From Marinicella sediminis (GTDB taxonomy: Bacteria; Pseudomonadota; Gammaproteobacteria; Xanthomonadales; Marinicellaceae), in NCBI RefSeq assembly GCF_002000055.1, contig NZ_MVBD01000007.1, forward strand, positions 186,001 to 250,000: a stretch of 64,000 nt of DNA, given 5' to 3'. The notes beneath the pieces are model-generated. The model was not told where the DNA came from and searched no databases. It saw only the letters and a list, made by a program, of their open reading frames with translations. How positions within the stretch are numbered: the stretch's first letter is position 1; every line of letters begins with the position of its first letter. Positions 16,437 to 35,137 of the stretch are shown piece after piece. Made by a program: the position numbers and the translations under genes.

Positions 16437-19106
16437 TCAATGGGCCTCATCCCAATTGTCTCCCACACCATAATCAACCACCAAAGGCACATCGAGTTGA
16501 ACCACCTGTTCCATCAGTGATTTGATCTTTTCTGACCAGTCTGCAGCCTGCTCACGGCGCACTTCAAAAACCAACTCATCATGTACCTGCATGATCATGC
16601 GTATGTCATCAGCTCCGGCAATCTGCTCGTGCACTGCCAGCATGGCTTGTTTGATGATGTCAGCCGCAGAACCTTGCATCGGCGCATTAATGGCCGCTCG
16701 TTCTGCACCGGAACGCACCCTTGCATTGCGGTTATTGATTTCAGGGAAAAACAGGCGTCGCCCAAACAACGTATCCAGATAACCCTGTTCTGCAGCCTGT
16801 TGCTTCACTGACTCGATGAATCCAGCCACCTTGGGATATTGAGCAAAATACTGTTTCATGTACTTTGAGGCCTCTTTGCGGCTGATGTGCAATTGTTTAC
16901 TTAAACCAAAAGCACTCATGCCATACATCAGGCCAAAATTAATCGCTTTGGCTGCCCGCCGCTGTTCTGAACTGACCTCTTCCAGCGGAGTCTCAAACAC
17001 CTGGGAGGCAGTCTGACTGTGTACATCTACATCATTGTTGAATGCAGCTAACAGGTTCTCGTCACCAGACAAATGAGCCATGATGCGCAGTTCAATCTGG
17101 GAATAATCTGCCGCCATCAAAACCCAGCCCTCAGGTGCTACAAAAGCTTTGCGGACCTGGCGACCTTCTTTGGTCCTGATGGGGATGTTTTGTAAATTGG
17201 GGTTCGCCGATGACAAACGACCAGTGATGGCCACCGCCTGATGATAGGAGGTGTGAACACGGCCGGTCTTTGCATTCACTTCCAGAGGCAATTTATCGGT
17301 ATAAGTGCTTTTCAGCTTACTCAATGAGCGGTACTCAAGAATCACTGCCGGCAACTCATATTCACCGGATAAGTCCTGCAACACATCTTCGGAAGTTGAG
17401 GCCTGACCGGTGGCGGTTTTTTTCAATACCGGCAAGCCCTGCTCCTCAAACAAAATGGTTTGCAATTGTTTCGGCGAACCAAGATTGAAAGACTTACCGG
17501 CCAGCTCGTGAGCCTGCTCTTCAAGGTCTGCCATGCGAATTGCCAGCTGTTCACTTTGTCTCGCCAGCTCTTCACTGTCGAGCAGCACACCCGTTTGCTC
17601 CATACCCGCCAACACCTGTACCAATGGCATTTCCAGGTCGGTGAAAACCTTTTTTTGTTCTGCTGTTGATAACCGGGACCACAATTCGTGATGCAACTGC
17701 AGGGTGATGTCAGCATCCTCTGCAGCGTAATGTGTGGCATCAGCCAGTGACACCTGTGCAAAAGGTATTTGTTTGGCACCTTTGCCACAAATGTCTTCAT
17801 ACTTGGTGGTCTTTTTATCGAGGTACAATGCAGCCAATGAATCCATATCATGTCGCGAAGCAGCGGCATTCAGAACATAGGATTCCAGCATGGTATCGAA
17901 TTTTTGTGATGTGATTTGCTGGCCATACCCTGACAGAACGTTCAGGTCGTATTTGAAATGCTGCCCCACCACATCGACGCTCTGCATCACCGGTATCACA
18001 GCCTGTAATACATCATCCAGTGGCAGCTGTGGCTCTTCGGTTTCATGAGCCAAAGGGACATAAGCGGCTGCTCCGGCGGAATGGCTGAAAGACATGCCAA
18101 CCAATCGGGCACCAATCGGATTCAACGAGTCGGTCTCCAGATCAAATGCCACCAAACCGGCATGTTTGATCGCTGAGAGCCATTGCTCAAGGGTTTCCAT
18201 GTCCTGAATACAGGTGTATTCGATCCTGGGTTCAGAAACTTGCTGTTTGACATCTTCGGCTTTTAATTCAGCAAATCTTTTCATGTCATATTGCTGACCG
18301 ATGTCATTGAGGCGCCCGATGTCTTTTTCCTGCAGGGCAAAATCTCCTGGTTGATAGTCAACATCGCAGTCCTTTTTAATCACCACCAGTTCCCGGGAAA
18401 GCTTCAGTTGCTCAATACCCTCTCGTAAATACTCACCCACTTTGCCTTTGAATTCTTCGGCATGGGCAATGATGTTGTCCACTGTGCCATATTCGTGCAA
18501 CCATTTGACTGCGGTTTTAGGACCAACTTTATTGACGCCAGGAATGTTGTCTGAAGAATCCCCAATCAATGCCAGATAGTCAATGATTTGTTCGGGTTCG
18601 ACCCCAAACTTTTCCTTGACCCCGGCCACATCCAACACCACGTCAGACATGGTATTAACCAGTGTCACATGGTCTGAGACCAATTGGGCCAGGTCTTTGT
18701 CACTGGTGGAAACCAGCGTTTCTATTCCCAGACTCTCGGCTTTTTTAACCAGGGTGCCAATCACATCATCGGCTTCGACATGCGGAATTTCCAGCATTGG
18801 GATACCCATGGCCTTGATCAGGTCCTTGGTCGGTTGCAGCTGCATCCGTAAATCATCAGGCATGGGCGGCCGGTTGGCTTTATATTCAGCGTACATATCA
18901 TGCCGGAATGTTTTCCCTTTGGCATCAAACACCACCACCATGTACTCCGGATCATATTCATCCAACATCCTCTTGAGCATGTTGGTCACCCCATACATCA
19001 CGCCGGTAGGGTGGCCATCCTGACTGGTTAATCTATTGAGTCCGGGTGAAAAAAATGCGCGAAACAAATAAGAGGATCCGTCGACCAGGTACAGGGTTTT
19101 GTTCAT
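16437..19106 (-). CDS. polA: DNA polymerase I with proofreading domain
   Basis: Family A polymerase for Okazaki-fragment processing and repair. The start at 19106 (MNKTLYLVDGSSYLFRAF) gives 889 residues; an in-frame codon at 19163 would add 19 non-family residues. The 5' nuclease occupies about 1-290. The 3'-5' exonuclease (about 310-490) keeps its acidic residues: DLETD near 320, QHFKYDLN and AAEDADITLQLHH, so proofreading should be active, unlike Taq-type enzymes. The polymerase has DYSQIELRIMAHLSGD near 665, the O-helix RRAAKAINFGLMYG and QVHDELVFEV near 842. It converges with the permease gene; no T-run terminator is obvious downstream. Confidence 0.97.
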   Translation of the reverse strand: MNKTLYLVDGSSYLFRAFFSPGLNRLTSQDGHPTGVMYGVTNMLKRMLDEYDPEYMVVVFDAKGKTFRHDMYAEYKANRPPMPDDLRMQLQPTKDLIKAMGIPMLEIPHVEADDVIGTLVKKAESLGIETLVSTSDKDLAQLVSDHVTLVNTMSDVVLDVAGVKEKFGVEPEQIIDYLALIGDSSDNIPGVNKVGPKTAVKWLHEYGTVDNIIAHAEEFKGKVGEYLREGIEQLKLSRELVVIKKDCDVDYQPGDFALQEKDIGRLNDIGQQYDMKRFAELKAEDVKQQVSEPRIEYTCIQDMETLEQWLSAIKHAGLVAFDLETDSLNPIGARLVGMSFSHSAGAAAYVPLAHETEEPQLPLDDVLQAVIPVMQSVDVVGQHFKYDLNVLSGYGQQITSQKFDTMLESYVLNAAASRHDMDSLAALYLDKKTTKYEDICGKGAKQIPFAQVSLADATHYAAEDADITLQLHHELWSRLSTAEQKKVFTDLEMPLVQVLAGMEQTGVLLDSEELARQSEQLAIRMADLEEQAHELAGKSFNLGSPKQLQTILFEEQGLPVLKKTATGQASTSEDVLQDLSGEYELPAVILEYRSLSKLKSTYTDKLPLEVNAKTGRVHTSYHQAVAITGRLSSANPNLQNIPIRTKEGRQVRKAFVAPEGWVLMAADYSQIELRIMAHLSGDENLLAAFNNDVDVHSQTASQVFETPLEEVSSEQRRAAKAINFGLMYGMSAFGLSKQLHISRKEASKYMKQYFAQYPKVAGFIESVKQQAAEQGYLDTLFGRRLFFPEINNRNARVRSGAERAAINAPMQGSAADIIKQAMLAVHEQIAGADDIRMIMQVHDELVFEVRREQAADWSEKIKSLMEQVVQLDVPLVVDYGVGDNWDEAH

Positions 19107-19405
19107 GTTTTTTGATTTACTGAATGGAGCAACTATTGTAGACCGAATGCCGGCGAAAATCATGTGTTGTTCGGTGTCAACTGATGAGCCCTCAACACCT
19201 AAAACCCGAACAGCAGGTCAAGTGGACCCGATGCCCCTGAGAGATAATCAGGGCCCTCTTGCCATCAACTGAAATTCCAATCTGTGAATCAGGTCTTAAA
19301 ATCAGACCCTTAGTTGTGCGAATTATGATATTTTGAATGACAAAAGGGAGGTGTTCAGTTAGTATTTCAAATGTGTAGTATTCATCAAATCACAGGGGAA
19401 ATCAT
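19107..19405. other. Divergent gap between polA and the S74 protein gene
   Basis: A 299-bp upstream region shared by polA and the gene at 19406. On the minus strand a TACAAT (19140-19135) about 29 bases before the polA ATG may be its -10 element, with no good -35. A short stem CCCTGA...TCAGGG lies at 19235-19253. For the rightward gene there is a good ribosome-binding site (AGGGGAAA, about 19393-19400) but no promoter I can call with confidence. Nothing else is seen. Confidence 0.45.
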
Positions 19406-20941: not shown

Positions 20942-20964
20942 GGACCACGGCTCATTGCACCGAT

Positions 20965-21000
20965 AAAGCACGATCAGAACATTCTGGTCGTGCTTTTTTT
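20965..21000 (+). terminator. Hairpin terminator after the S74 protein gene
   Basis: A 12-bp stem (AAGCACGATCAG paired with CTGGTCGTGCTT, one G-T wobble) with the loop AACATT and seven T. It lies 23 bases past the stop of the rightward gene. It also abuts the stop of the leftward glycan operon; in that direction only three T follow the stem, so termination would be weaker. Confidence 0.9.
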
Positions 21001-21922
21001 AACACTTTTGTGGTCCGCTGATCGTCGGATAAAAAGGCAGTTCTGAGGCCAGCCAGCTGATGGAAGGCAATTTCTGTTCCTCCTGATCAAACACATGTCC
21101 GATGAAATCAGGGTGCTGAAACCAACGGTGATAATGTACATGTATCAGGTCACTGGCCGCCGGATCACTTGCTCCTTGCTTTTTAAACCTCGGCCTGAAT
21201 GGCAGTGGGTAGTTAATCGTGATCGGGGGAATCAACGGTTCCGTTTTGAGTTGCTGCAGCACAATAGAAATTGACATTTGCTCATTGAAACCGTAATTGA
21301 CCTGATGCCGGGAAGAGCCCGAATCAGTTCTGACCTCACTGTCCATCAGTCGTTCAAACGTTTTTTTCCATTGTGTAAAGAATCCGAGTTCATGCCGGGC
21401 GAACACAAAACCTGAGTTGTAATACGGCCTGATCAGCTGTTGATCAACGGTGGTGGTCATATTTGCTACAGGCGCCGGCAAACCAAACAAGCCAAAACTT
21501 TGTTGCCAATATCCATCTGCCGGATCTTCATCACCAGCAGAACCAATCCCCTTGTTGTCTACCGGCCTGACAACCACCGGGTACTTATGCAGCCAACGGG
21601 CATCGAGCGGGTTAACAAACACGGTGTCTGTATCCACCAACAAGATGTCTTCAGAAGTCTGTGTTTCGATTTCACTGGCGGCATAGATGCCGTTACACAA
21701 TGGAAAATAGTCGTGACGGGTGTTCAGGTTTTGATACACATACTTGCCACCCAGGTTTTCAATGCTTTTGATGGTGCTTACTGACGGTTGATATGCTTCC
21801 CTGACACAACACGCCACAGCGGTGACATCACTTGCAGAGCGGTGAAATCGGTTGATTGATTTCTGCAGTAACACTGCCTGTTGTTCCAACAGGCCCTTTT
21901 CAACAATATATACAATAATCAC
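20999..21922 (-). CDS. GT-A type glycosyltransferase-like protein
   Basis: A 307-residue protein that looks like a nucleotide-sugar-dependent transferase. The key feature is DILLVDTDTVFVNPL near residue 95, a DxD motif in the usual GT-A position after a hydrophobic strand, and a later YYNSGFVFARHEL segment as in family GT8-like acceptor lobes. I cannot name a specific family. The GTG start overlaps the stop of the aminotransferase gene (GTGA). It is the last gene of the ten-gene leftward operon, and probably adds a sugar made or altered by its neighbours. Confidence 0.72.
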   Translation of the reverse strand: MIIVYIVEKGLLEQQAVLLQKSINRFHRSASDVTAVACCVREAYQPSVSTIKSIENLGGKYVYQNLNTRHDYFPLCNGIYAASEIETQTSEDILLVDTDTVFVNPLDARWLHKYPVVVRPVDNKGIGSAGDEDPADGYWQQSFGLFGLPAPVANMTTTVDQQLIRPYYNSGFVFARHELGFFTQWKKTFERLMDSEVRTDSGSSRHQVNYGFNEQMSISIVLQQLKTEPLIPPITINYPLPFRPRFKKQGASDPAASDLIHVHYHRWFQHPDFIGHVFDQEEQKLPSISWLASELPFYPTISGPQKC

Positions 21923-23016
21923 AATGGTTCTTGAAAACTGTTACAAGCCGCAATGACTTGCTGGATTTCCTGTTCAGACAACCCAGGATAAATAGGCAGG
22001 CTGACCACTTGCTGACAGATCTGTTCAGTCAATGGCAGATGACTGTCCCCGTATTCTTTCTGGTATGCACCGGATAAGTGAGGTGGAACCGGGTAATGAA
22101 TCATGCTTTCCACACCTTGGTTTTGCAGGTGATTCATGAAGGCCTGACGGTCTGTTACCCGCACCACAAACTGATGCCAGACATGACCTGATACCTGTTG
22201 AGGTAAGCGAAGCAAGGGGTTTTTGATGTTTTGCAGGAATTGGCCGGCGATCTGATTTCTTTGTTGGTTTTTCGATTCAAGGTATGTCAGCTTTTCCAAC
22301 AACACTGCAGCCTGTATCTCATCAAGCCTGCAGTTGAGTCCCGGCATGTCATGCTGATATTTTACCACTGAACCATAATTACGCAGCTTCAGCAGCCTGG
22401 AATACAAGGCCTGATCATTGGTGGTGATGGCACCGGCATCTCCGAGGGCACCCAGGTTTTTGGTTGGATAAAAACTAAAAGCCCCTGCCAGCCCCATGGA
22501 TCCGGCCATTGCGCCTTCACATTTTGCACCCTGAGCCTGAGCGGCATCTTCAATGACCGGCAGCTGGTGTCGATCAGCCACGGCCCTGATGGCTGACATG
22601 TTGGCCGGAGCACCGTACAAATGAACCACCATAATTGCTTTTGTGCGTTCAGTGATGGCCTGTTCAAGCGCTGCCGGGTTGATGTTGTAATCCTGATCGT
22701 CCGGTTCCACAGGTATGATTTTCGCGCCCAAATCGCTCACCGGTAACCATGACGCAATGAAGGTGTGTGCCGGCACAATGACTTCAGCATGCTCATCGAT
22801 TTGCAGGGCTTTTAAAATCAACCGAATGGCATCCAGACCGTTACTCACACCAAGACAGTGATTGACCCCGATGTATTCAGCAAATGCCGTTTCAAATGCC
22901 TGCAGTTTTGGTCCCAGTATAAATTGGCCTGATGAAATGGTGTCATCAATGGCTTGCCGCACCGCTGCCATGTAATCCTGGCTTTCTGCCGCAAAATTAA
23001 AAAACCGAACAGTCAT
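21919..23016 (-). CDS. Sugar aminotransferase, DegT/DnrJ/EryC1/StrS (FdtB/QdtB-like)
   Basis: PLP-dependent aminotransferase of nucleotide sugars, 365 residues. The PLP lysine is Lys186 in FYPTKNLGALGDAGA; other family signatures are CLGVSNGLDAIRL, VIEDAAQAQGA and LNCRLDEIQAAVLLEKL. Directly downstream of an FdtA/QdtA-type ketoisomerase, it most likely aminates C3 of a dTDP-3-keto-6-deoxyhexose to give dTDP-Fuc3N or dTDP-Qui3N. Which isomer is formed cannot be told from sequence. It overlaps both neighbours by four bases. Confidence 0.9.
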   Translation of the reverse strand: MTVRFFNFAAESQDYMAAVRQAIDDTISSGQFILGPKLQAFETAFAEYIGVNHCLGVSNGLDAIRLILKALQIDEHAEVIVPAHTFIASWLPVSDLGAKIIPVEPDDQDYNINPAALEQAITERTKAIMVVHLYGAPANMSAIRAVADRHQLPVIEDAAQAQGAKCEGAMAGSMGLAGAFSFYPTKNLGALGDAGAITTNDQALYSRLLKLRNYGSVVKYQHDMPGLNCRLDEIQAAVLLEKLTYLESKNQQRNQIAGQFLQNIKNPLLRLPQQVSGHVWHQFVVRVTDRQAFMNHLQNQGVESMIHYPVPPHLSGAYQKEYGDSHLPLTEQICQQVVSLPIYPGLSEQEIQQVIAACNSFQEPL

Positions 23017-23426
23017 TGCCGCTGATTAACAATGTCCACAAATTCATCATAATCATGGTAATAGTCATCTGGATCATACTTATTTGACGCCAATACCATC
23101 AACACAGATCCTGAAGAAAAATTACTGATTTCACGCCAGATCATGGGACATAAATACAAGCCATAATAAGACCTGTTCATGTGAATCACTTTGCTGCTGT
23201 GGCCATCGTCTATTTTGATGTCAAAACTACCTGAGAGGGCAATGATGAGCTGATGAAGGCCTTTGTGAGCATGTCCACCCCGTTCCGCGCCACCTGGCAC
23301 ATCATACAAGTAATAGACCCGTTCAATGTCAAACGGGACATGCCTGGAGCCCTCGATAAAAGTTAAATTACCTTTGGGATTGTTCACCACTGGCAAATCA
23401 ATGATCTTGCATTTGTCAATCAACAT
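23013..23426 (-). CDS. dTDP-sugar 3,4-ketoisomerase (FdtA/QdtA-like cupin)
   Basis: A 137-residue cupin of the FdtA/QdtA/WxcM family, which converts dTDP-4-keto-6-deoxyglucose to the 3-keto isomer. Visible signatures are the N-terminal PKGNLTFIEG, the active-site HAH in ERGGHAHK, YYGLYLCPMIWREISNF and the C-terminal SNKYDPDDYYHDYDEF. A good ribosome-binding site (GTGAGAGA) precedes the ATG. The stop overlaps the aminotransferase start (ATGA). The dTDP-glucose genes rmlA and rmlB that supply its substrate are not in the window. Confidence 0.9.
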   Translation of the reverse strand: MLIDKCKIIDLPVVNNPKGNLTFIEGSRHVPFDIERVYYLYDVPGGAERGGHAHKGLHQLIIALSGSFDIKIDDGHSSKVIHMNRSYYGLYLCPMIWREISNFSSGSVLMVLASNKYDPDDYYHDYDEFVDIVNQRQ

Positions 23427-23459
23427 ATGTGTCTCTCACCGGAGCTGTGGGCCGCCGTT

Positions 23460-24281
23460 TCATATAACCGCCGGTTCCGGGTAAAAATATTTGTAATACT
23501 GCCCATACTTTTCTAAACAGCCGATGATCGCTTCGGTTTCAGAATGATCGTAATGATCACTGTTGTTTTGTGAGCTGAATTTCAATTCTGCTGGAATGTG
23601 ACAACCTTCAATCATGCTGTTCAGTATATTGGGTTGTTCAACGAATGATTCATATTTAACCACGTCAACACCTGACTTGTTGAGGTATTTTTTATACATC
23701 CAGTCCAACAACAAGACCTGTCGATGTAAACGGTCACTGACGCCACCAAGATGCGCCAGTTGTGGATCAAATTTCTCAGCCATCAAAGAACGGCCTTTGC
23801 TGACCGAGACATCCAGTGACCTCCACGATTTGAGCACAGCGACCGGATTCCTGACTGTTGCAATGATCTGAAAATAACCAGATTCAAGCAGCTGATCCAA
23901 CACCGCCGTGAAATAAATATTGGATTTGATGAACCAGTGTATTTCACTCCAGTGAGGCTCTGGTGTGATCAGCTCCGCTGTTTTGGTTCTTTGGATTCCC
24001 TCAGCGGTGCGTTTGAAGTGGTTGTCAGCGATTTCTTGTCCATCCAGACCATAAGTCAATTCGATCGGTTTTTGTCTGCTGACTTGGTTTCTCAGCACGG
24101 CCAGGTGATCATTCAAGGCATCTGCCGTGGCATGAGGCTCACTGGTTTGTCTGATTTTTTTTAACCAACCTGGCTCATCCAGCACCAGTGTGTCAACACT
24201 GTTTTCGGCAATGGTTTTGATCAACAAGGTACTGCCACTGCGTGGGACGCCGGTGACCAGGGTGGTTTGCCGGTCAGCCAT
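23460..24281 (-). CDS. Sulfotransferase-family protein
   Basis: A 273-residue cytoplasmic protein resembling PAPS-dependent sulfotransferases. The 5'-phosphosulfate loop reads TGVPRSGSTLLIKT at the N-terminus, and the 3'-phosphate segment TVRNPVAVLKSWRSL carries the conserved Arg and Ser. A GTG at 24287 in the same frame is an alternative start with a closer AAGAG; the ATG at 24281 was chosen. It overlaps the methyltransferase gene's end. In this operon it probably sulfates a glycan or lipid-linked sugar; the acceptor is unknown. No PAPS-synthesis genes are nearby. Confidence 0.78.
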   Translation of the reverse strand: MADRQTTLVTGVPRSGSTLLIKTIAENSVDTLVLDEPGWLKKIRQTSEPHATADALNDHLAVLRNQVSRQKPIELTYGLDGQEIADNHFKRTAEGIQRTKTAELITPEPHWSEIHWFIKSNIYFTAVLDQLLESGYFQIIATVRNPVAVLKSWRSLDVSVSKGRSLMAEKFDPQLAHLGGVSDRLHRQVLLLDWMYKKYLNKSGVDVVKYESFVEQPNILNSMIEGCHIPAELKFSSQNNSDHYDHSETEAIIGCLEKYGQYYKYFYPEPAVI

Positions 24282-25362
24282 GACCACTGTACTCTTGTTG
24301 AATCCTGCCTGACATCGGTTTAGAAACAGCCACCACAGTCAGCCAGTCTAGCCCAGGGCCAACGCCTCCCAGTCTGGTCTCTGTGACCAACAAGACATCC
24401 ATTGGGGTGGTTTCGATGATGGCCTCCATGGCCCCTCTGGCAAAGCCCCATAAATGTACGGGATCAGGTTCTTTGTTCATCGGGTAATTCACTTTTTGTT
24501 CCAGAGGTGTACCAAGCACCACCACATCCACCGGCAATTCACAGGTCTGGCGAATGAGCTTTGCCGGATCTGAAAAGTGTTCACAAAACTCAAACATCGA
24601 TACCACGTTGGTTTTTTTGCCTTCCTCAGCCAGTCTGGCAATCAGACTGAAAGCGTCTTCACAACTGTATTGTTTGCCAGCAGACGCATTTTTGCTGGCG
24701 TATGCCACCCTGCTCGGCTGCAGGTCACAGCCCTTGATTTGCCATTGATCCGTGCCATACAGATAAGGGTTAACCGCATTGGTTATGTAACCCACACCAC
24801 AGCCCACATCAAGCCACCGGCCCTCATTGACACCCAATTGTCTGAATATCCCGATCAATGTTTCGATGATGTTCACCGCATAGGTTTTGCGAAACACGTG
24901 GTTGATGTTTTTGGTCAGCTCAATGGGCACAAAATCCTGGTTCGAATGATCCTTGAATTGTTTGGTTTTCAGTTCTGCAGACAGGCTTTTGTTTTGTTCT
25001 TGGTAGTATTGGTCGTAAGCCGCCTGATCAAACCTGACAAATGGTTTGATCGAGCAGGGGTTGATTTGCCCACTGTTGATCAAACCAATGGTTTCATTGC
25101 CTTCCTGGCACCAGTGATCAAAAGCACTCAGTCTTGCCAACAACACCGTAGCCAGCTTTTTCAATCTGACCCGTTGGTTGTTTTTCAGACTGTTGATCAT
25201 GGCTTTTAGGGTGTCACCCAGGTATGCCAGCATGAAACGATCATTGTGCTGCAGTTGCGCCATCACCGATTGCATTTCTGACAAGGTGCGATCGTTGATG
25301 TTTTTGGTCTGTATTAATTGAACACACTGGTGCAGTTGTTCGGTCAGGGTTGGGTTGTTCAT
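24274..25362 (-). CDS. SAM-dependent methyltransferase, class I fold
   Basis: A 362-residue protein. The first ~180 residues are helical and unrecognised. The rest is a Rossmann methyltransferase with motif I WLDVGCGVGYIT at about residues 198-209, an acidic residue at the end of strand 2 (IKGCDLQPSRV) and the post-strand-4 segment NVVSMFEFCEHFSDP. A UbiE/Methyltransf_11-like fold is the best description. The substrate is probably an intermediate in the same surface-glycan pathway, by context only. It overlaps the acyltransferase gene by four bases (ATGA). Confidence 0.85.
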   Translation of the reverse strand: MNNPTLTEQLHQCVQLIQTKNINDRTLSEMQSVMAQLQHNDRFMLAYLGDTLKAMINSLKNNQRVRLKKLATVLLARLSAFDHWCQEGNETIGLINSGQINPCSIKPFVRFDQAAYDQYYQEQNKSLSAELKTKQFKDHSNQDFVPIELTKNINHVFRKTYAVNIIETLIGIFRQLGVNEGRWLDVGCGVGYITNAVNPYLYGTDQWQIKGCDLQPSRVAYASKNASAGKQYSCEDAFSLIARLAEEGKKTNVVSMFEFCEHFSDPAKLIRQTCELPVDVVVLGTPLEQKVNYPMNKEPDPVHLWGFARGAMEAIIETTPMDVLLVTETRLGGVGPGLDWLTVVAVSKPMSGRIQQEYSGHG

Positions 25363-27221
25363 TGAACTTCTCTTGGCGAATCAAATTGTACCAGGTATTT
25401 TGCATAATCCATACTGGCCCCCAATGATAAATGATTTCGGTCATAGGTGACCATTTCTTTCTGATCTTCAGTAAAAACCCGGCATTGCTGCTGAGGACAG
25501 AAATAACTGAGCTTATCAATGTATCGCGCTCCGGCCTGCTCAACTTGCTCTTTGGCTTGTTCATTGAGAACGTACAACCTGTTTTGCTGGTGTTGATTGA
25601 CCCGTTTACTTGCTTCCGCGAAATCGGTTGCACCATGCGCTAAAATACGGGCCTGTTCCTGGTATTGCGGACCCACGCCCAGCACAGTGACCCGCACAGG
25701 GTGTTGAATCAGAGTTTGTATACTTTTCCGCAATGCGGGTAACCGGGCAAAATCAATCCTGATGCTGTACACGACTTCATCAACACCTGGGTTGTCAGTC
25801 AAGTAATGTAGCAGCCTGTCAAATACCGCATCACACGATTTGTTCAGCACCTGCGAGGTGTTGATGATCGGCGGACAGCCTTTCTCACTCATCAATATGT
25901 AGTGATTGTCGGGTTGCCAGGCTGACATGATGTTGAACCCATCTATGCCAAACGAGTCTCCCACAATCAAAACGTTTTGACTGATTTTATGGGGTTCAAG
26001 ACACTGCTCGCTGATTCCCCTGCTGTGGGTATCACATTGTGAAAACCACAGTTGGTAACGCTGCAGATTAACTGCTTTGTCTGACAACGAAGTGACTTCA
26101 CTGACCGGTAATACGGTGCTTTTCAGCTGCCCATCCCGACTGATCAGCCAAAAGCAAAGCCAAATCAACAGCAGCACAAAAAACCACAACAACCAACTGT
26201 TTCGTCGGTGGTACCTGAAGGGTTGTTCGACAAAACGGTGGAGCAGAACAGCCAATAGCAACGAGCCTGAAAACATGATGACCTGATCAACGCCTTCAGG
26301 CTTATGCGGTAAGACAAACAGGTAAAACACCACCACCGGCCAATGAACCAGATACCAGGAATAAGAAAAATTGCCGATGGCGACCATCACCGGATGTTCA
26401 AGAATGATGCGGTTGAAGCCCACCGGTCTGATTAACAACAAGACCGCACAGGCCAAACAAGGAATCAGGGGCCACCATGATGGAAACCGTTCAATGAATT
26501 CGAATGCATACACACAAGCCACCAACACGGCCAAAGCCAACACGCCGATCAGGGCTGAAAGCCTTTCGGATAACCGCTGTTGTGGCCATAAACAGACCAG
26601 TCCGCCCAGGCAAAACTCAAAGACCCTGAATGGCAACAGATAAAAACCAGCATCAGGGTTGCTGGCGGTCACCACCACTGACAGCAACAGGCTGAGGACC
26701 GCCATTGCCAACAGGATTAACCGCAGGTTCCATTTTCTGAGGTGTGCCCAAATCAGCATCGCCGGATACAGCACATAAAACTGTTCTTCGACACCCAAAG
26801 ACCAGGTGTGCAACAGCGGCTTGTATTTAGCGGTGTAGTCCCAATAACCGGCTTCGGTAAAAAAATACAGGTTTGAAACCGAAAACAAGGCCGCCAGCGA
26901 GGCCTCTGCTGTGTCTGAAATCAGCACGGCAGGGAATAACAGAACAGCTACCAGCAAAGTCACCGCCAGGGTAACCAGCAATGCCGGAAACAAGCGCCAA
27001 AAACGGTTTTTATAAAAACCAAAGAGCTTAAACCCATCCCCCTGCAGGCGTTCAACAATCAGCCGGGTGATTAAAAATCCTGACAAGGTAAAAAACACAT
27101 CCACACCAATGAAGCCACCATTGCTGAAAGGCACCTCCAGGTGGTCCAGAATCACAGCCAGCACGGCCAATGCCCGCAGACCCTGGATGTCCTTTCTGAA
27201 CGTCTTCTGCACGGCGGTCAT
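25359..27221 (-). CDS. OafA-type acyltransferase 3 fused to SGNH domain
   Basis: A 620-residue membrane protein that O-acetylates surface glycans. The N-terminal ~370 residues form an acyltransferase-3 domain with about ten membrane segments: DIQGLRALAVLAVILDHL (R-x-x-R region and His), FIGVDVFFTLSGFLIT and WSLGVEEQFYVLYP. A periplasmic SGNH domain follows with LIVGDSFGIDGF (catalytic Ser) and YDRNHLSLGA (Asp-His). This is the OafA/OatA architecture, in which the membrane part exports the acyl group and the SGNH part transfers it. The ATG at 27221 overlaps the preceding stop by four bases; a TTG at 27230 is less likely. Confidence 0.92.
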   Translation of the reverse strand: MTAVQKTFRKDIQGLRALAVLAVILDHLEVPFSNGGFIGVDVFFTLSGFLITRLIVERLQGDGFKLFGFYKNRFWRLFPALLVTLAVTLLVAVLLFPAVLISDTAEASLAALFSVSNLYFFTEAGYWDYTAKYKPLLHTWSLGVEEQFYVLYPAMLIWAHLRKWNLRLILLAMAVLSLLLSVVVTASNPDAGFYLLPFRVFEFCLGGLVCLWPQQRLSERLSALIGVLALAVLVACVYAFEFIERFPSWWPLIPCLACAVLLLIRPVGFNRIILEHPVMVAIGNFSYSWYLVHWPVVVFYLFVLPHKPEGVDQVIMFSGSLLLAVLLHRFVEQPFRYHRRNSWLLWFFVLLLIWLCFWLISRDGQLKSTVLPVSEVTSLSDKAVNLQRYQLWFSQCDTHSRGISEQCLEPHKISQNVLIVGDSFGIDGFNIMSAWQPDNHYILMSEKGCPPIINTSQVLNKSCDAVFDRLLHYLTDNPGVDEVVYSIRIDFARLPALRKSIQTLIQHPVRVTVLGVGPQYQEQARILAHGATDFAEASKRVNQHQQNRLYVLNEQAKEQVEQAGARYIDKLSYFCPQQQCRVFTEDQKEMVTYDRNHLSLGASMDYAKYLVQFDSPREVQ

Positions 27222-28138
27222 TGATAGCAAGCCTGATCTGCCAATTCAACAAATTGACGGCTTTGATCAGGCATCAAATGATCCTGGTTTATGAAGGCCG
27301 CAAACTCAAAAGACATGTCCAATTCCCTGAAATCAACATATTTGAGGCCCAATGATTTAGCGATGTCCTTGAATCGGGAGATGGTTTTCTGATAGGGATC
27401 ACGGCTGGCTATCATGGCTAAATAGTTCGGATCCACCGGGGTTCTGAGCACACATATACGGGCCCCTTTTGCCTGCAAAAATTCCAGCATCTCCTGATAA
27501 ATTCTGAAGTAATTTTCAGCCGCCGGTGAACCGTATAACGGTTGCTGGAAATCCACCCTTGAACGGGTTTTATCCAGGCGTTCCTGCGGATCAATTGTGG
27601 TCGACCAGTATCTGCTTTTCTTCATTTCATCCGGCCACCTGCGAAAAATCACATCTGTGGCATGTTCAGGGTCAGCCAATCTGATGATTTCCTGAGCAAT
27701 GCCTTTTTCAAAGACGTATAACTTTGGAATCAACCAATGATTGATGTTGAAAAACTGATGGTGATTTTTGTCATGCCATTGCAGGTGGATTTCACTGATG
27801 AATTGCGGTGATGCTTCAACGATTACCTTGCCAGGCATGCGGTATTTGAAATAATTTCTGATGAATAAATCAATCACCGGGATGGTTGAACCACCCCGGC
27901 CAAGATTCAAGTACAGATCCTGGTCAATGAAAGAACGGTAAATGTGTGAATCACCTACAGCCACATCAGGGCTGTCCGAACTGTAAACCATGTGGATCCT
28001 TTGAGGAACCGATTTGGGAATGGTCACAATGTAAGACCGCAGAAACCACTCCGTGGTAACCAGAAAGGTCAGCACCATCAACAACACCATATACAGGTGC
28101 CGTTTAGAAAAACCGGTAGATAAATTCTGAGTAGCCAT
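27218..28138 (-). CDS. SGNH acyltransferase partner of MBOAT, copy 1
   Basis: A 306-residue protein with one N-terminal membrane anchor (HLYMVLLMVLTFLVTTEWFL) and a periplasmic AlgJ/AlgX/DltD-like SGNH-type domain. The nucleophile block reads VAVGDSHIYRSF and the C-terminal Asp-His block INQDHLMPDQS. Such proteins take the acyl group exported by their MBOAT partner and place it on a polysaccharide. The ATG at 28138 lies inside the end of the adjacent MBOAT gene (about 35-base overlap), so the two are translationally coupled. It is clearly homologous to the protein at 29602-30543. Confidence 0.85.
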   Translation of the reverse strand: MATQNLSTGFSKRHLYMVLLMVLTFLVTTEWFLRSYIVTIPKSVPQRIHMVYSSDSPDVAVGDSHIYRSFIDQDLYLNLGRGGSTIPVIDLFIRNYFKYRMPGKVIVEASPQFISEIHLQWHDKNHHQFFNINHWLIPKLYVFEKGIAQEIIRLADPEHATDVIFRRWPDEMKKSRYWSTTIDPQERLDKTRSRVDFQQPLYGSPAAENYFRIYQEMLEFLQAKGARICVLRTPVDPNYLAMIASRDPYQKTISRFKDIAKSLGLKYVDFRELDMSFEFAAFINQDHLMPDQSRQFVELADQACYQ

Positions 28139-29579
28139 TGCCAATGATTTTAAATAACGAAATAAATACCATCAAGGTGATGATTGCGGTAAACCAAATA
28201 CCAGGGTTCCAGCTCGATGTACTGGCGTAGTTGTGATTTTGCTGATAGTCCATGACCTCCTGCGTATTGGGAAATGTTTTGACCACCACACACAATAACA
28301 ACACCAGCAACAATGTCAGCCAACCAGGTCCCGGAATGACAAATACCGCCTGCTCAAGGATGTTGCCCGGCAAATCCATACCGAAGTTTAACAAGCTGCT
28401 GGCCAAGGTAAGGATGCTTCCCACTGATTCAGACTTAAAGACAATGAAGGTGAGGTTGACAAACAGAAAGGTCATTATCCAGCTGCCCAGATCGTACATT
28501 TTCGAATCCGCTGCCACGCGGGCAAATCCAGGCGACATTTGTTGTCTGTATAAATGATTGACCACCAGAGCAAGGCCATGCAAACCGCCCCAAATGATGT
28601 AAATCCAACCGGCTCCATGCCACATACCACCCAACAACATGGTGATCATCAAAAATACGTATCGGTTCACCACGCCTTTGCGGTTTCCACCCATTTGGAT
28701 GTATAAATAGTCCCTTAAAAATGCCGATAAGGTGATGTGCCAACGACGCCAGAAAGCAATGATGCTGCGCGACTTATACGGCGAATTGAAGTTGATTGGT
28801 AACTGTATACCAAACAGCAAGGCACTGCCAATGGCAATGTCCGAATACCCTGAAAAATCAAAGTAAATCTGTAATGTGTATGCCAGTGAACCACTCCAGG
28901 CAAGCCAGGCTGAAAGCGCCTGCCCCTGATGGCTGAGTTCGAACACCCAATTGGCGTGGGGGGCCAGTCCATCTGCCAGTACCACTTTTTTAAACAGGCC
29001 AATGATGATGATGGTGATCCCGGCCGCAATGATCTTGTGGGTCAGTTTGATTTCATGACGACTGGAAAACTGCGACATCACGTCTTTGTGGTGCACAATG
29101 GGTCCTGAGATCAATTGTGGAAAGAAAGCCACGAATAAGACATAGCTTCGGAAGGTATTGTCTTCTATTTTGCCTTGTTTGGCATCGACCAGATAGGCAA
29201 TTTGCTGGAAGGTAAAAAATGAAATGGCCAATGGCAAAATCACTTGTTCAAGCAATCCTTCCAAGCCAAAAATGCCAAGGAAAAACTGACTGTACTTGTA
29301 GTAACCCAGGATGACCAGGTTAACAACAATACCTAAAATCATCACCCAACGGGCATACCAACGCTGTTTCATGATCACCTGGCCAGCGAGGTAATTGAAG
29401 CAGATTGATCCCAGCAACAGCAACAAATATTCGACTTTCCACCAGGTGTAGAACAGGAAAGATCCGGCAATCAGCCAATAGATGCCAGCCACCTTGTGGC
29501 CCATTCTGATGAACAGGGCATAGACCAGTGTCATCAGTGGCAAAAAAATCAACAGGTATTCAAGTGAATTGAACAACAC
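28104..29579 (-). CDS. MBOAT-family O-acyltransferase, copy 1
   Basis: A 491-residue polytopic membrane protein of the AlgI/DltB/PatA type. It moves acyl groups across the inner membrane for glycan O-acylation. The family core PINFNSPYKSRSIIAFWRRW and the catalytic-His helix MLLGGMWHGAGWIYIIWGGL followed by HG are intact. The start is GTG with a CAGGAG about 14 bases upstream. It begins 22 bases after the stop of the previous SGNH gene and overlaps its own SGNH partner. Homologous throughout to the MBOAT at 30509-31969. Confidence 0.93.
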   Translation of the reverse strand: MLFNSLEYLLIFLPLMTLVYALFIRMGHKVAGIYWLIAGSFLFYTWWKVEYLLLLLGSICFNYLAGQVIMKQRWYARWVMILGIVVNLVILGYYKYSQFFLGIFGLEGLLEQVILPLAISFFTFQQIAYLVDAKQGKIEDNTFRSYVLFVAFFPQLISGPIVHHKDVMSQFSSRHEIKLTHKIIAAGITIIIIGLFKKVVLADGLAPHANWVFELSHQGQALSAWLAWSGSLAYTLQIYFDFSGYSDIAIGSALLFGIQLPINFNSPYKSRSIIAFWRRWHITLSAFLRDYLYIQMGGNRKGVVNRYVFLMITMLLGGMWHGAGWIYIIWGGLHGLALVVNHLYRQQMSPGFARVAADSKMYDLGSWIMTFLFVNLTFIVFKSESVGSILTLASSLLNFGMDLPGNILEQAVFVIPGPGWLTLLLVLLLCVVVKTFPNTQEVMDYQQNHNYASTSSWNPGIWFTAIITLMVFISLFKIIGNGYSEFIYRFF

Positions 29580-29601
29580 GGCTTACATGCTCCTGAGGTG
29601 G

Positions 29602-30543
29602 TCAGCGGTTGCCTGAACTGCTGTGTGGGTCAAAACAACGGCTGAAAACCAATGCAGAAAACGTTTTACTGGCTGCCGGAGTGATGTGGTCCTGATTGAT
29701 GAATGCTGATTCCTCGAAGTCAATCGGTAATTCCTGAAAGTCTACGTAGCGGACATTATAGTCTCTGGCCAGTTCCAGGAAAAATAATTCTGCTTGCAAA
29801 TACGCCTCACTTTGAGCGGTGACTGCCAGATATTCTGCGTTGACCGGCGGCCTGACCAGGCACACACTGGCTTGTTTTGACAAGAGCCCGCTGATCAGCT
29901 CCCGGTATATCCGTTGATAGTCTGCCGTTCTGTTGTCCTGCCATTGTGGCATGTGATGCTCAACCCTGGCCCGGACCCTGTTGCTGCGTTGTTGGTCAGT
30001 CATTGCCAACCATGCCTGACTGCTGGCCTCAAATTCAGGCGGCTGAGATTGCATCAGCAACTGATAAGCCTGACTGACTGATTTTATTTCGTTGATGAAT
30101 TCGGTGATGCCTTTTTCAAACAGGTATGGTTTGTAAAAGGCCATATTCAGATTGAAATACGCATCGTAACGCTGGGTGTTCCGCTCCAACTGAGGTTTGC
30201 TGAACAATTGTGGCGAAGCCTGTAAAACAACCCTGGATGGTATTTTATTGCTGAAATATTTCTCCAGAGTCAGTTTTACCGCAGGTATGGGATTACCCCG
30301 TCGGGCCAGATTCACGAAATCCTGCTGTTCAAGAAATGCCCGATACATTTGTGAATCTCCAGCCACCACCTGATCACCGGTGGCCTGGTAAACCCGGTTA
30401 ATCAATGCCGGTGTCGACCTTGGCAGTTTCACCACAATCAGTCGCACAAACAATTCTGCCGTGATTAACAACAGCAAGAGCAACATCACCAGTAGCCGCC
30501 AGTAACGTTTAAAAGAACCGGTAGATGAATTCTGTGTATCCAT
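29602..30543 (-). CDS. SGNH acyltransferase partner of MBOAT, copy 2
   Basis: A 313-residue homologue of the protein at 27218-28138. It has the same short cytoplasmic start (TQNSSTGSFKRYWRLLV against TQNLSTGFSKRHLYMV), one membrane helix and a periplasmic SGNH-type domain. The nucleophile block is VVAGDSQMYRAF, with Gln where copy 1 has His, and the C-terminal block is INQDHITPAAS. Both copies keep Ser, Asp and His. The ATG lies 35 bases inside the end of the upstream MBOAT gene. A difference in acceptor or acyl group between the two copies is possible but not shown. Confidence 0.85.
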   Translation of the reverse strand: MDTQNSSTGSFKRYWRLLVMLLLLLLITAELFVRLIVVKLPRSTPALINRVYQATGDQVVAGDSQMYRAFLEQQDFVNLARRGNPIPAVKLTLEKYFSNKIPSRVVLQASPQLFSKPQLERNTQRYDAYFNLNMAFYKPYLFEKGITEFINEIKSVSQAYQLLMQSQPPEFEASSQAWLAMTDQQRSNRVRARVEHHMPQWQDNRTADYQRIYRELISGLLSKQASVCLVRPPVNAEYLAVTAQSEAYLQAELFFLELARDYNVRYVDFQELPIDFEESAFINQDHITPAASKTFSALVFSRCFDPHSSSGNR

Positions 30544-31969
30544 TGGTCATGATTTTAAAAAATGAAATTGCCGACAACAAAAATATGACAAACACCCATA
30601 AACCATTGGGCTTCCAGAGGGCTTGGGTGAGAACCTTGTTCTCTACATCATACCCCATGATTTGTTGGGTATTGGGCAAAGCAGTCACCACCACCACGAG
30701 CGATAACAACCAACCCAATAAGAAAACCACTTGTGTGGTAGCAAACACACCAGTACCTGACTCAACACCCGGCTCAATAAAAAACATCAACGACATGATG
30801 TCACCGAGTAAGTGCAGATCGTTCACCCTGAAAACCACAAAAGCCAGTACCACAGCCAAAAAAGTCATCAACCAGGAGCTTGCATGCCATACAGATTGTG
30901 AAAAACGGGCGTTCACTGACCTGCCCGGCAACCACTTTCGGAACACATGATTGATGATCAGAAAAACACCGTGCATACCCCCCCAAAGCAGAAAAGTATA
31001 AGCCGCACCATGCCACAACCCGCCCAACAACATGGTCACCATCAGAAACACCATTTGCCAGAAATAACCTTTGCGGTTTCCTCCAAGCGGAATATATAAG
31101 TAGTCTTTGAGGAACCTGGACAACGTCATGTGCCAGGTCCGCCAAAACATGATGATACTGGTCGACTTAAGGGGAGAATTAAAATTAATGGGCAAGAATA
31201 CACCAAACATCAAGCCCAATCCTATGGCCATATCTGAGTATCCGGAAAAATCAAAATAAATCTGAAAAGTATATGCCACAGAGGCCATCCAGACCTCGCG
31301 GGCATTGGAAGACTGCAACAAGTTTTCCTGCTCGAACACCTGTTTCACATACCAGGCCAATTCATCGGCCACACCCACTTTTTTAAACAGCCCGATGATA
31401 AAAAAAGTCATGCCTGCTGCCATCAACTTGTGCTGGAAAGTTCGTGCCTGATGAAATTGTGGCATCATTTCTGAGTGATGTACGATCGGCCCCGAAATCA
31501 GTTGCGGAAAAAAAGTCACAAACAAGGCATATGATGCCAGAGACTGATCTTTGACTTTACCCTGATGGCTGTCAACCAAATAGGCAATTTGCTGAAAAGT
31601 AAAAAATGAAATGGCCAGTGGCAGCACAATGTTCATGGTGGCTGACTCATGCCAGCCTAAACCAGCCAGGGTTTCAAGGATCAGGTTGGTGTATTTGAAA
31701 TAAATCAATACAGCCAAATTGGCAACCACACCTGTTGCCAACCAGCCCATTGATTTATTTTTCTGTAACCTGATCCCAATGAAGTAATTGAACATCATTG
31801 AAATCAGCAACAGATACAAATAGCTCCATTTCCACCACCCATAAAAAAACAATGAACACAAAATCAGGGCAACAGCAGCCAGACCCGGTGAGTATCGGTT
31901 CAACGACCAAAACAACAGCAGGCAGCCTGGCAGAAACACCAGCAGAAACAATAACGAATTAAAAAGCAT
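30509..31969 (-). CDS. MBOAT-family O-acyltransferase, copy 2
   Basis: A 486-residue polytopic MBOAT, first gene of the leftward glycan operon. Core motifs are PINFNSPLKSTSIIMFWRTW and LLGGLWHGAAYTFLLWGGMH followed by G, with the catalytic His. It is similar along its length to the MBOAT at 28104-29579, so the MBOAT-SGNH pair has been duplicated in tandem. Its ATG at 31969 directly follows the T run of a terminator hairpin, and the only ribosome-binding-site-like sequence (AAGGCAGG, 31978-31985 read on the minus strand) is the hairpin's right arm. Confidence 0.93.
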   Translation of the reverse strand: MLFNSLLFLLVFLPGCLLLFWSLNRYSPGLAAVALILCSLFFYGWWKWSYLYLLLISMMFNYFIGIRLQKNKSMGWLATGVVANLAVLIYFKYTNLILETLAGLGWHESATMNIVLPLAISFFTFQQIAYLVDSHQGKVKDQSLASYALFVTFFPQLISGPIVHHSEMMPQFHQARTFQHKLMAAGMTFFIIGLFKKVGVADELAWYVKQVFEQENLLQSSNAREVWMASVAYTFQIYFDFSGYSDMAIGLGLMFGVFLPINFNSPLKSTSIIMFWRTWHMTLSRFLKDYLYIPLGGNRKGYFWQMVFLMVTMLLGGLWHGAAYTFLLWGGMHGVFLIINHVFRKWLPGRSVNARFSQSVWHASSWLMTFLAVVLAFVVFRVNDLHLLGDIMSLMFFIEPGVESGTGVFATTQVVFLLGWLLSLVVVVTALPNTQQIMGYDVENKVLTQALWKPNGLWVFVIFLLSAISFFKIMTNGYTEFIYRFF

Positions 31970-32000
31970 AAAAAAAACCTGCCTTTTACAAGGCAGGTTT
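31970..32000 (-). terminator. Terminator or attenuator hairpin ahead of the glycan operon
   Basis: Read on the minus strand: AAACCTGCCTT, a four-base loop GTAA, AAGGCAGGTTT, then eight T, ending one base before the MBOAT ATG at 31969. The stop of the secreted-protein gene at 32027 lies 27 bases upstream. It should end that gene's transcript. Because it fills the gap to the operon's first start codon, and its arm contains the only Shine-Dalgarno-like sequence, it may also control the operon. A weak promoter overlapping it (TTGATC, 17 bases, TAAAAG) is an alternative source of operon mRNA. Confidence 0.85.
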
Positions 32001-32026
32001 TAGTTGATCAATTGATGTTAATTGAA

Positions 32027-32830
32027 TCAGGGAGCTGGAGGAGTGTGCGGACATGCTCCACCACCGATGAAGGTTTGTCTTCTTGATTCAAACTCATCAA
32101 AGTAGTATTCCTGACCAGCTGCAATACTTTCATGAACACCCATTTGACCGATACGGGTCAGGAAGATGCCTTTGAAGATCGCTGGATCAAGGTCCAGACC
32201 AGTCAACTCAAGTATACGAGGATCTGTTTCATTTTCAGCATCAATCCACATTTTCAGGTGACCTGTGTCATTGGCGCCAAACAACAAATCATATTCCAGT
32301 CTGAATGGTGCGTCAGGAACCGGGAAGTTAAAAACGTTACGCTTGGCAGCACCTGCTATGTTGTTGTCACGCACATAACCAATGATTCGGTAATCTGGAG
32401 TGGCCGCATTTGCATTGGTGTTGTCAAATTTCAACATCAGGTTATCAAAACCAAAGCAGCTGTTTGGGCCAGCAGGTGATCCACAAGATGCAATGTGTAC
32501 CTTCAAACGTCTTTCCGGACCGGTTGAAGGCAGTTCAATGTTGTTGGGGTTGAAGCAGAAAGAAACACGGTAGCGAAGTTCGCCATTTGGGCTGTCGTCC
32601 TGTACCCAGTGACGTGCAGCGCCGCCTTGTTGCTCAGCAACTTCCAGTTGCAAACCACAAGATGTGTTGTCATGAGCAGCCTGATCAGATACTGACAACA
32701 GATTGGCTGGGTTTTGGTTAGCAGACCAAGCCGCAATGTTGGTCAGGTCACAGGTTCCGCCAGCAAAACTGCTCACACTGAACAGCAAAGAAGCGGCCAC
32801 AACGCCTGCTTTTAATATGGTTTTTTTCAT
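32027..32830 (-). CDS. Secreted Cys-containing beta-sandwich-like protein, unknown
   Basis: A 267-residue exported protein of unknown function. The ATG at 32830 follows a strong AGAGGA ribosome-binding site and begins a classic signal peptide (MKKTILKAGVVAASLLFSVS, cleavage near FAGG). The mature part has several Cys (CDLT, TSCGLQ, SFCFNP, ASCGSP, NSCFGF, GACP), which suggests disulfides outside the cytoplasm. It ends with YYFDEFESRRQTFIG, the kind of final strand seen in LamG/concanavalin-like sandwiches. That fold is a guess. It has its own -10 element upstream and a terminator downstream, so it is probably a well-expressed single gene. Confidence 0.8.
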   Translation of the reverse strand: MKKTILKAGVVAASLLFSVSSFAGGTCDLTNIAAWSANQNPANLLSVSDQAAHDNTSCGLQLEVAEQQGGAARHWVQDDSPNGELRYRVSFCFNPNNIELPSTGPERRLKVHIASCGSPAGPNSCFGFDNLMLKFDNTNANAATPDYRIIGYVRDNNIAGAAKRNVFNFPVPDAPFRLEYDLLFGANDTGHLKMWIDAENETDPRILELTGLDLDPAIFKGIFLTRIGQMGVHESIAAGQEYYFDEFESRRQTFIGGGACPHTPPAP

Positions 32831-32861
32831 AATATCCTCTAAATAAATCGTGATGGTATCT

Positions 32862-32867
32862 ATTATA
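32862..32867 (-). promoter_or_regulatory. Consensus -10 element (TATAAT on the minus strand)
   Basis: TATAAT read leftward lies 32 bases before the ATG at 32830 of the secreted-protein gene. No good -35 hexamer is found at 16-18 bases; ACCGAT is at the right distance but poor. The element falls just before the end (32901) of the neighbouring FG-GAP gene. Confidence 0.55.
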
Positions 32868-32900
32868 ACGAAGTTCTTTTTATTATCGGTCACATTTTTT

Positions 32901-35021: not shown

Positions 35022-35137
35022 CGCCACATTATGACACAGCACATGTCATGGTGATGTTAAACGATGTCTGGGGTTATGGTCTTGTGGTGTTTGAAAATGG
35101 GTCACAAGCTGTCAATGCAAACTGGCTGATACCAACA

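Follow-up and report, generated by a model that had tools for sequence, protein, structure and literature searches.

A ten-gene operon of Marinicella sediminis as a probable cassette of a variable glycan locus with a constant secreted protein

Organization of the locus

Marinicella sediminis carries ten leftward genes in a 64,000-nucleotide stretch of its genome (G000 C42:186001-250000, hereafter the window; genome of 3.99 Mb in 44 contigs), which an initial annotation made from the letters alone had described as an operon that builds and decorates an unusual surface glycan. All ten open reading frames (ORFs) lie co-oriented on the minus strand at the coordinates given there (20999-31969). The comparison covered 13 further loci, of which 12 belong to the genus and one, G020, to a sister genus of the family. 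Each of the 14 loci encodes a glycosyltransferase (GT), a secreted protein (~250 residues) and one or more sulfotransferases, and the other glycan genes are swapped. The interval first delimited is too narrow: the secreted-protein gene (32027-32830), a promoter-like element and a terminator belong with the locus. The features are as follows, in window coordinates.

16437..19163 (-): polA, flank of the variable locus and outside the glycan system; same contig as the GT in 14/15 GT-bearing Marinicella genomes
20999..21922 (-): GT-A-like glycosyltransferase, conserved anchor; DxD and HxHYH; in 14/14 loci
21919..23016 (-): DegT pyridoxal phosphate aminotransferase, QdtB-like; PF01041, E 7.9e-113; FYPTKNLGALGD Lys motif
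23013..23426 (-): sugar 3,4-ketoisomerase, predicted C4-retaining (QdtA) type; PF05523, E 1.6e-55; His52, His54, Arg98
23460..24287 (-): sulfotransferase using 3'-phosphoadenosine 5'-phosphosulfate (PAPS); PF13469, 30.5 bits (cut-off 27); GVPRSGST and RNPVAVLKSWRS
24274..25362 (-): class I methyltransferase with N-terminal extension; PF13489, PF08242
25359..27230 (-): AT3 (OafA-type) acyltransferase fused to SGNH; PF01757, PF19040; GDSF, DRNH
27218..28144 (-): SGNH acyltransferase partner 2; GDSH, QDH; weak GDSL match below the cut-off
28104..29579 (-): MBOAT O-acyltransferase 2; PF03062, E 4.2e-30; C-terminal EFIYRFF
29602..30543 (-): SGNH acyltransferase partner 1; GDSQ, QDH; clusters with partner 2; no Pfam match
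30509..31969 (-): MBOAT O-acyltransferase 1; PF03062, E 1.1e-29; C-terminal EFIYRFF
31974..32001 (-): predicted intrinsic terminator after the secreted-protein gene; 12-pair stem and T-run abutting the MBOAT1 ATG
32027..32830 (-): secreted protein with beta-sandwich model, putative glycan partner; in 14/14 loci; covaries with gene content
32867..32892 (-): promoter-like element TGACCG-N16-CGTT upstream of the secreted-protein gene; recurs at 14/14 loci
35138..37063 (-): dinG/yoaA-like helicase, other flank; PF13307; on the far side of the locus in the six stretches showing both flanks

Seven of the ten operon proteins match Pfam above the curated cut-off (DegT, FdtA, Sulfotransfer_3, methyltransferase, Acyl_transf_3 with SGNH, and MBOAT twice), both SGNH partners carry the family motifs, and the GT model is GT-A-like, so the original domain assignments stand. 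Nearly all genes had been said to overlap; by our readings of the ORF coordinates, from which junction lengths and start codons are taken, 7/9 junctions overlap (4, 4, 14, 4, 13, 41 and 35 nucleotides) and two are gaps (33 and 22 nucleotides). As also noted there, Pfam recognizes no flippase, polymerase or N-acyltransferase among the ten genes, nor a priming enzyme. The secreted-protein gene lies directly upstream of MBOAT1; its start was set at ATG 32830 on the basis of the family alignment, whereas the ORF list places it at 32932.

A search for co-occurrence of the ten families, which the initial annotation had proposed, found all ten in the same order in M. litoralis (G013, L034), alone among the 14 loci in sharing them with the window. 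Protein identity between the two species ranges from 46% to 88% for the ten genes, the upper value being that of the ketoisomerase (90% in another alignment), and is 74% for the secreted protein. Fourfold-degenerate sites are near saturation, with identities of 28-42% for the ten genes, 44% for the secreted-protein gene and 31% for the helicase gene. A gene order shared despite this saturation excludes chance. The saturation also means that the high identity of the ketoisomerase reflects constraint, not recent exchange.

Gene content varies next to a fixed flank

The GT family was found at 16 named loci. Ten of these are labelled Marinicella, including M. litoralis, M. pacifica, M. marina, M. 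gelatinilytica and M. meishanensis, and the other six are metagenome bins labelled Lysobacterales, Gammaproteobacteria or Proteobacteria. The distance from polA to the GT gene is at most 3.1 kb in 13 genomes and 12.7 kb in G017; the G010 contig breaks off within the GT gene. polA and the helicase gene stand on opposite sides in six stretches (the window, L034, L037, L038, L039 and L045), and the contig coordinates of G017 agree. The GT is missing from 3/18 Marinicella genomes, likely through assembly gaps, since two of these also lack a polA match and the third has polA beside a truncated S74 gene.

Beyond the constant members, gene content differs from locus to locus. The sulfotransferases fall into clusters 3, 7 or 13, one representative of each being confirmed by Pfam. 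The AT3 cluster occurs in 8/14 loci and a cluster of sulfatase-fold membrane proteins in 7/14 (representative PF00884). Further sulfotransferases, GT2/GT4-like enzymes, a nucleotide-sugar epimerase, FkbM and other methyltransferases, and a phosphoesterase are likewise variable. The MBOAT, SGNH partner, ketoisomerase and DegT clusters are restricted to two of the 14 loci, those of the window and M. litoralis; similarly, a genome-wide search placed the ketoisomerase in these two of 18 Marinicella genomes. The clustering excluded G008, G009 and further short contigs. A hydropathy screen of the 13 other loci yielded one ORF with ~11 transmembrane segments, L041_10, which has no Pfam match. Literature searches for Marinicella sulfotransferases or polysaccharide glycosyltransferases returned no description of this locus.

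The secreted protein covaries with gene content

A profile of the secreted family finds one strong copy per genome in 14/18 Marinicella genomes and also in G020 and G022. The position and orientation of the gene vary among the 14 loci. The AlphaFold model (predicted local distance difference test score, pLDDT, 71.7) is an all-beta sandwich resembling lyases, glucanases and galectins, a likeness of fold that does not in itself indicate function. None of 14 family members matches Pfam above the cut-off, and a profile search of the PDB gave no match.

To compare the protein with its surroundings, gene-content sets were defined without the flank families, the GT and the secreted protein, and G015 (L035), which yielded just a polA fragment, was left out. 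Over the remaining 13 loci, secreted-protein identity correlates with the Jaccard similarity of gene content (Spearman rho 0.77, Mantel p 0.0002), polA similarity does not (rho 0.00, p 0.47), and GT similarity is intermediate (rho 0.59). Four variants of the test, in which singletons were also dropped, gave rho values of 0.77-0.80 for the secreted protein, 0.58-0.65 for the GT and ~0 for polA. In particular, G001 and G002 are 90% alike in polA and 34% alike in the secreted protein; G003, G012 and G020 are 58-75% alike in polA and 60-68% alike in the secreted protein. Linked exchange is the simplest cause of this covariation, and co-adaptation is possible.

A recurrent upstream element and terminator

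The element TGACCG-N16/17-CGTT stands upstream of the secreted-protein gene in 14/14 Marinicella cases (13 loci and G008); in G020, the spacer is N19. Visual inspection of the 14 loci yielded the motif; among glycan-associated genes independent of that set, G008 carries it, and G022, from the same sister genus as G020, and G041 do not. It was also not found in four homologues without neighboring glycan genes. Genome-wide, it matches 35 times against 132 for a reversed control, or about one expected per thousand regions of 250 nucleotides. In the window alone, one match is unremarkable (35/100 shuffles); since a single match is often expected by chance, the case for the element rests on its recurrence. 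A broad regulon was considered and rejected: 28 of 29 other matches examined lie inside ORFs and one lies outside without an ORF start within 250 nucleotides, five matches being left unexamined. The spacing resembles that of promoters for extracytoplasmic function (ECF) sigma factors, which suggests an ECF-type element. A literature search for the TGACCG-N-CGTT string did not find it. Sigma-70 promoter scanning was uninformative (22 found, 22.3 expected), and an Rfam scan of 19000-36000 gave no match.

A terminator-like hairpin with a T-run lies directly downstream of 17/17 glycan-associated secreted-protein genes (14 Marinicella, G020, G022 and G041) and of 0/4 glycan-free homologues examined. 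By our readings of terminator-to-ATG distances, the T-run reaches into the initiation codon of the glycan gene that follows at five loci (G000, G013, G012, G007 and G004). The secreted-protein gene thus apparently has a promoter and a terminator of its own. The 3' arm of the window hairpin (31974-32001) also holds a possible MBOAT1 ribosome-binding site (AGGCAGG), and the hairpin could couple termination to translation of the first operon gene.

Predicted chemistry of the glycan

The ketoisomerase aligns without gaps to the FdtA and QdtA chains, with HAH at 52-54 and WRE at 97-99. Both conserved His residues are present, and Arg98 occupies the position of FdtA His95. Arg is likewise found at this site in QdtA (4o9e), 5tpu and 7n67, and His in FdtA; QdtA entry 4zu7 has His, presumably as an engineered variant. 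According to a review (PMC2943079), retaining ketoisomerases carry Arg and inverting ones His at this position. The window enzyme combines Arg with the two His residues of the C4-retaining QdtA type and lacks the His of the inverting FdtA type. Arg98 at the His95 site therefore predicts dTDP-Qui3N (dTDP-3-amino-3,6-dideoxyglucose); the galacto epimer Fuc3N was considered as the product and rejected under the same Arg/His rule. The aminotransferase has 5u1z, 5u21, 7n63 and QdtB (3frk) as its best PDB sequences, and QdtB can aminate either epimer, as stated in the same review (PMC2943079).

The ketoisomerase is the sole FdtA-family match in the genome. RmlB, for dTDP-4-keto-6-deoxyglucose, is encoded at G000:C12:274572-275567 (502 bits, cut-off 365), adjoined by RmlA-, RmlC-, RmlD- and CysQ-like ORFs recognized by eye. 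Read by eye from N-termini, the surrounding stretch (L086:14199-19899, G000 C12) holds this Rml-like cluster with an ORF resembling mannose-1-phosphate guanylyltransferase and two resembling CysQ/inositol phosphatase. Compared with the dTDP-Qui3NAc (N-acetylated Qui3N) pathway (PMC2943079), the locus is alike in its Arg-type ketoisomerase and adjacent QdtB-like aminotransferase and differs in having no QdtC-type N-acyltransferase in the operon. None of the ten genes resembles QdtC, the search being confined to these ten. In G022, of the sister genus, a gene for a hexapeptide-type acyltransferase adjoins the ketoisomerase-aminotransferase pair. There, the pair lies at L047:2868-7626 (G022 C42) together with a GT4 enzyme, the hexapeptide acyltransferase and a Polysacc_synt_3 (Wzx-like) protein. 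The Marinicella pair could have been recruited from a more conventional setting of this kind.

The GT has no Pfam family match, and its DxD and HxHYH motifs are invariant across 15 sequences. Its model (pLDDT 84.7) aligns with WbbM (VIA-align Z 16.6) and LgtC (Z 16.4). The fold is similar to that of GT8/GT6-like retaining enzymes, with the DxD and C-terminal His motifs visible and no Pfam family assigned; judging from this modeled fold, the mechanism would be retaining. The sulfotransferase scores above the cut-off of its family hidden Markov model and carries PRSGST and RNP...S, which we take to be the 5'-phosphosulfate-binding (5'-PSB) and 3'-phosphate-binding (3'-PB) motifs; phmmer found no match for it in the PDB. 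An adenosine 5'-phosphosulfate (APS) kinase for the PAPS supply is encoded elsewhere in the genome.

Weak, unhelpful PDB matches were obtained for the methyltransferase. Its family occurs in 5/61 genomes at E 1e-20, and four of these are the four with a ketoisomerase of at least 64% identity. It is a candidate N-methylase for Qui3N, with imperfect co-occurrence: G043 (ketoisomerase 59%) has no methyltransferase, and G004 (M. meishanensis) has the methyltransferase and no ketoisomerase. A second family copy in the M. sediminis genome, at L089:9327-10382 (G000 C44:166359-167312), shares 52% identity with the family member of the G004 locus, and its stretch holds no further ORF matching proteins of the glycan locus.

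Both window MBOATs contain the MBOAT domain with the WHG His and a Tyr-bearing C-terminal tail, and EFIYRFF ends 4/4 MBOATs of the window and M. litoralis. The adjacent SGNH partners carry GDSQ (1) or GDSH (2) and, in both, QDH; partner 1 has no phmmer match among PDB sequences. In PatAB, an acyl-Tyr intermediate forms on a conserved C-terminal hexapeptide, a scheme extended to other MBOAT-SGNH systems in the same study (PMC12148441). The EFIYRFF tail, compared without the exact hexapeptide consensus, fits such an acyl-Tyr shuttle. As in the PatAB, AlgIJX and WssHI pairs (PMC12148441), the MBOAT and SGNH genes are adjacent and the C-terminal tail contains Tyr; in contrast, the Marinicella operon combines two such pairs with an AT3-SGNH fusion. 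O-acylation by both MBOAT-SGNH pairs and by the fusion is thus likely, and we assume that the acyl group is acetyl.

Collectively, a sulfated, multiply O-acylated glycan with a 3-amino-3,6-dideoxyhexose, as originally proposed, is still the best chemistry, with the aminosugar narrowed to predicted Qui3N and inputs from RmlB and APS kinase encoded elsewhere. The operon may act on a glycan whose synthesis is encoded at another site, as the initial annotation had suggested. In the proposed route, RmlA and RmlB would supply dTDP-4-keto-6-deoxyglucose, which the QdtA-type ketoisomerase and the DegT aminotransferase would convert to dTDP-Qui3N. The GT-A enzyme would add a sugar, and the PAPS-dependent sulfotransferase and the methyltransferase would act on the glycan while it is still cytoplasmic. 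Products of genes outside the operon would then export it, and in the periplasm it would be O-acylated by the two MBOAT-SGNH pairs, through the acyl-Tyr shuttle on EFIYRFF, and by the AT3-SGNH fusion. As its constant partner, the secreted beta-sandwich protein would serve either as a carrier or as a lectin that holds it.

Homologues beyond the genus

Among 398 genomes of the order, the secreted family occurs in 39 at E 1e-10, 14 from Marinicella and 25 others; surroundings were examined for 24 of the latter 25, all except G349. The family is wider than its link with sulfoglycan genes: 21 clear homologue loci, from two other families, were compared with the Marinicella locus, and two weak matches left out of this count, L078 and L079, are also without its glycan families. 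The remaining three of the 24 are G020, already among the 14 loci; G022, where the secreted-protein gene stands beside the methyltransferase gene; and G041 (L075, another family), where a distant homologue with an altered C-terminal tail is surrounded by sulfotransferase, GT2-like, FkbM and phosphoesterase genes, neither polA nor the helicase gene being present in that stretch. Mean identity is 36% for 15 glycan-associated and 42% for 21 glycan-free members, values uncorrected for species distance and unused as evidence of divergence. The C-terminal tail ESRRQTFIG was considered as a system-specific glycan attachment site and rejected, its Ser and Thr being kept in 21/21 glycan-free homologues.

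Interpretation and alternative explanations

Based on these comparisons, we consider it probable, with moderate confidence, that the operon represents one of several exchangeable cassettes at a variable surface-glycan locus found throughout Marinicella, which lies between polA and the dinG-like helicase gene and has the secreted protein as the constant partner of its glycan. Polymorphic O-antigen and capsule loci, such as the Acinetobacter K locus, have fixed housekeeping flanks and swapped glycan genes. The Marinicella locus resembles the K locus in both respects and in variation independent of core-gene similarity; in contrast, the ten window genes include no Wzx, Wzy or export genes, and the constants are the secreted protein, the GT-A-like enzyme and a sulfotransferase. 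In S-layer and flagellin glycosylation islands, a surface glycoprotein gene is linked to its glycan genes. The Marinicella arrangement is similar in that the secreted-protein gene adjoins glycan genes and apparently has a promoter and a terminator to itself, whereas its protein is only a putative acceptor, modeled as a soluble beta-sandwich and without a Pfam family above the cut-off. A bolder version, an antigenically variable sulfoglycoprotein system with one secreted carrier per genome, an ECF-like promoter and a cassette exchanged with a carrier that is remodeled to match, is a tentative proposal that we doubt more than we credit.

Several points weigh against the main reading. All 21 clear homologue loci lack, in the stretch examined, any glycan family of the Marinicella locus, and their proteins keep the same conserved core and C-terminal tail; the basic function of the protein may therefore lie outside this glycan. 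G022 and G041 lack the upstream element, and the operon lacks a flippase, polymerase, priming enzyme and N-acyltransferase. Covariation may be mere physical linkage during cassette exchange. Locus annotation relied on simple calling of the longest ORFs, and several loci are truncated, either at a contig end or because a stretch was limited to 20 kb; the chemistry and transcription of the locus are predictions from sequence.

The missing assembly genes fit a stand-alone decoration operon that modifies a conventional O-antigen or lipopolysaccharide (LPS) core glycan made elsewhere, with the secreted protein unrelated. Periplasmic acyltransferases require only an exported acceptor, and the one Wzy_C-family match of the genome is a WaaL-like ORF on another contig, in a cluster that looks LPS-core-like by eye. 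However, the secreted-protein gene is present in 14/14 loci, in shifting position and orientation, and tracks gene content, and we think a decoration operon unlikely. A polysaccharide lyase or hydrolase that trims its cognate glycan, as AlgL trims alginate, is less credible still. The model of the secreted protein does resemble glucuronan and alginate lyases (VIA-align Z 14.3, root-mean-square deviation 3.4 over 202 residues to 2zzj), the likeness to PL7/PL20 being one of fold, and one of 14 members gives a K1-lyase_C match at E 0.013. Nevertheless, the same fold is common to lectins and glucanases, and the model pLDDT is only 71.7. By our reading of alignment A1, the His of a Lys-x-His stretch that might correspond to the catalytic His of PL7 occurs in 7/14 members, and no His or Tyr is invariant. 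Finally, the independence of gene content from polA similarity would also suit a mobile genomic island with genes that are simply inherited together and serve no common product. Such an island is highly improbable: the ten genes keep their order between species with nearly saturated synonymous sites, the versions are functionally coherent, the regulatory signals recur, and a tRNA search of the window found none.

Polymorphic surface-glycan loci are known as a kind; the larger finding here is a swappable locus with a constant, covarying and apparently separately regulated secreted protein. What had appeared as a single decorated-glycan operon becomes a comparative system with many natural locus versions around that protein. 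Should this protein prove to carry or bind the glycan, the versions would supply matched pairs of protein and glycan, ready for use, from marine bacteria in which a sulfotransferase is constant, and a test of the joint evolution of variable surface glycans and their partner proteins.

Neighboring genes

On the polA side, a gene at 19406-20941 (+) encodes a secreted protein with a C-terminal Peptidase_S74 intramolecular chaperone domain and converges on the operon; it adjoins the GT gene in the window, L034, L042 and L043. On the helicase side, an FG-GAP repeat protein is encoded at 32901-35042 (-), with 31-37% identity to its counterparts in five other loci.

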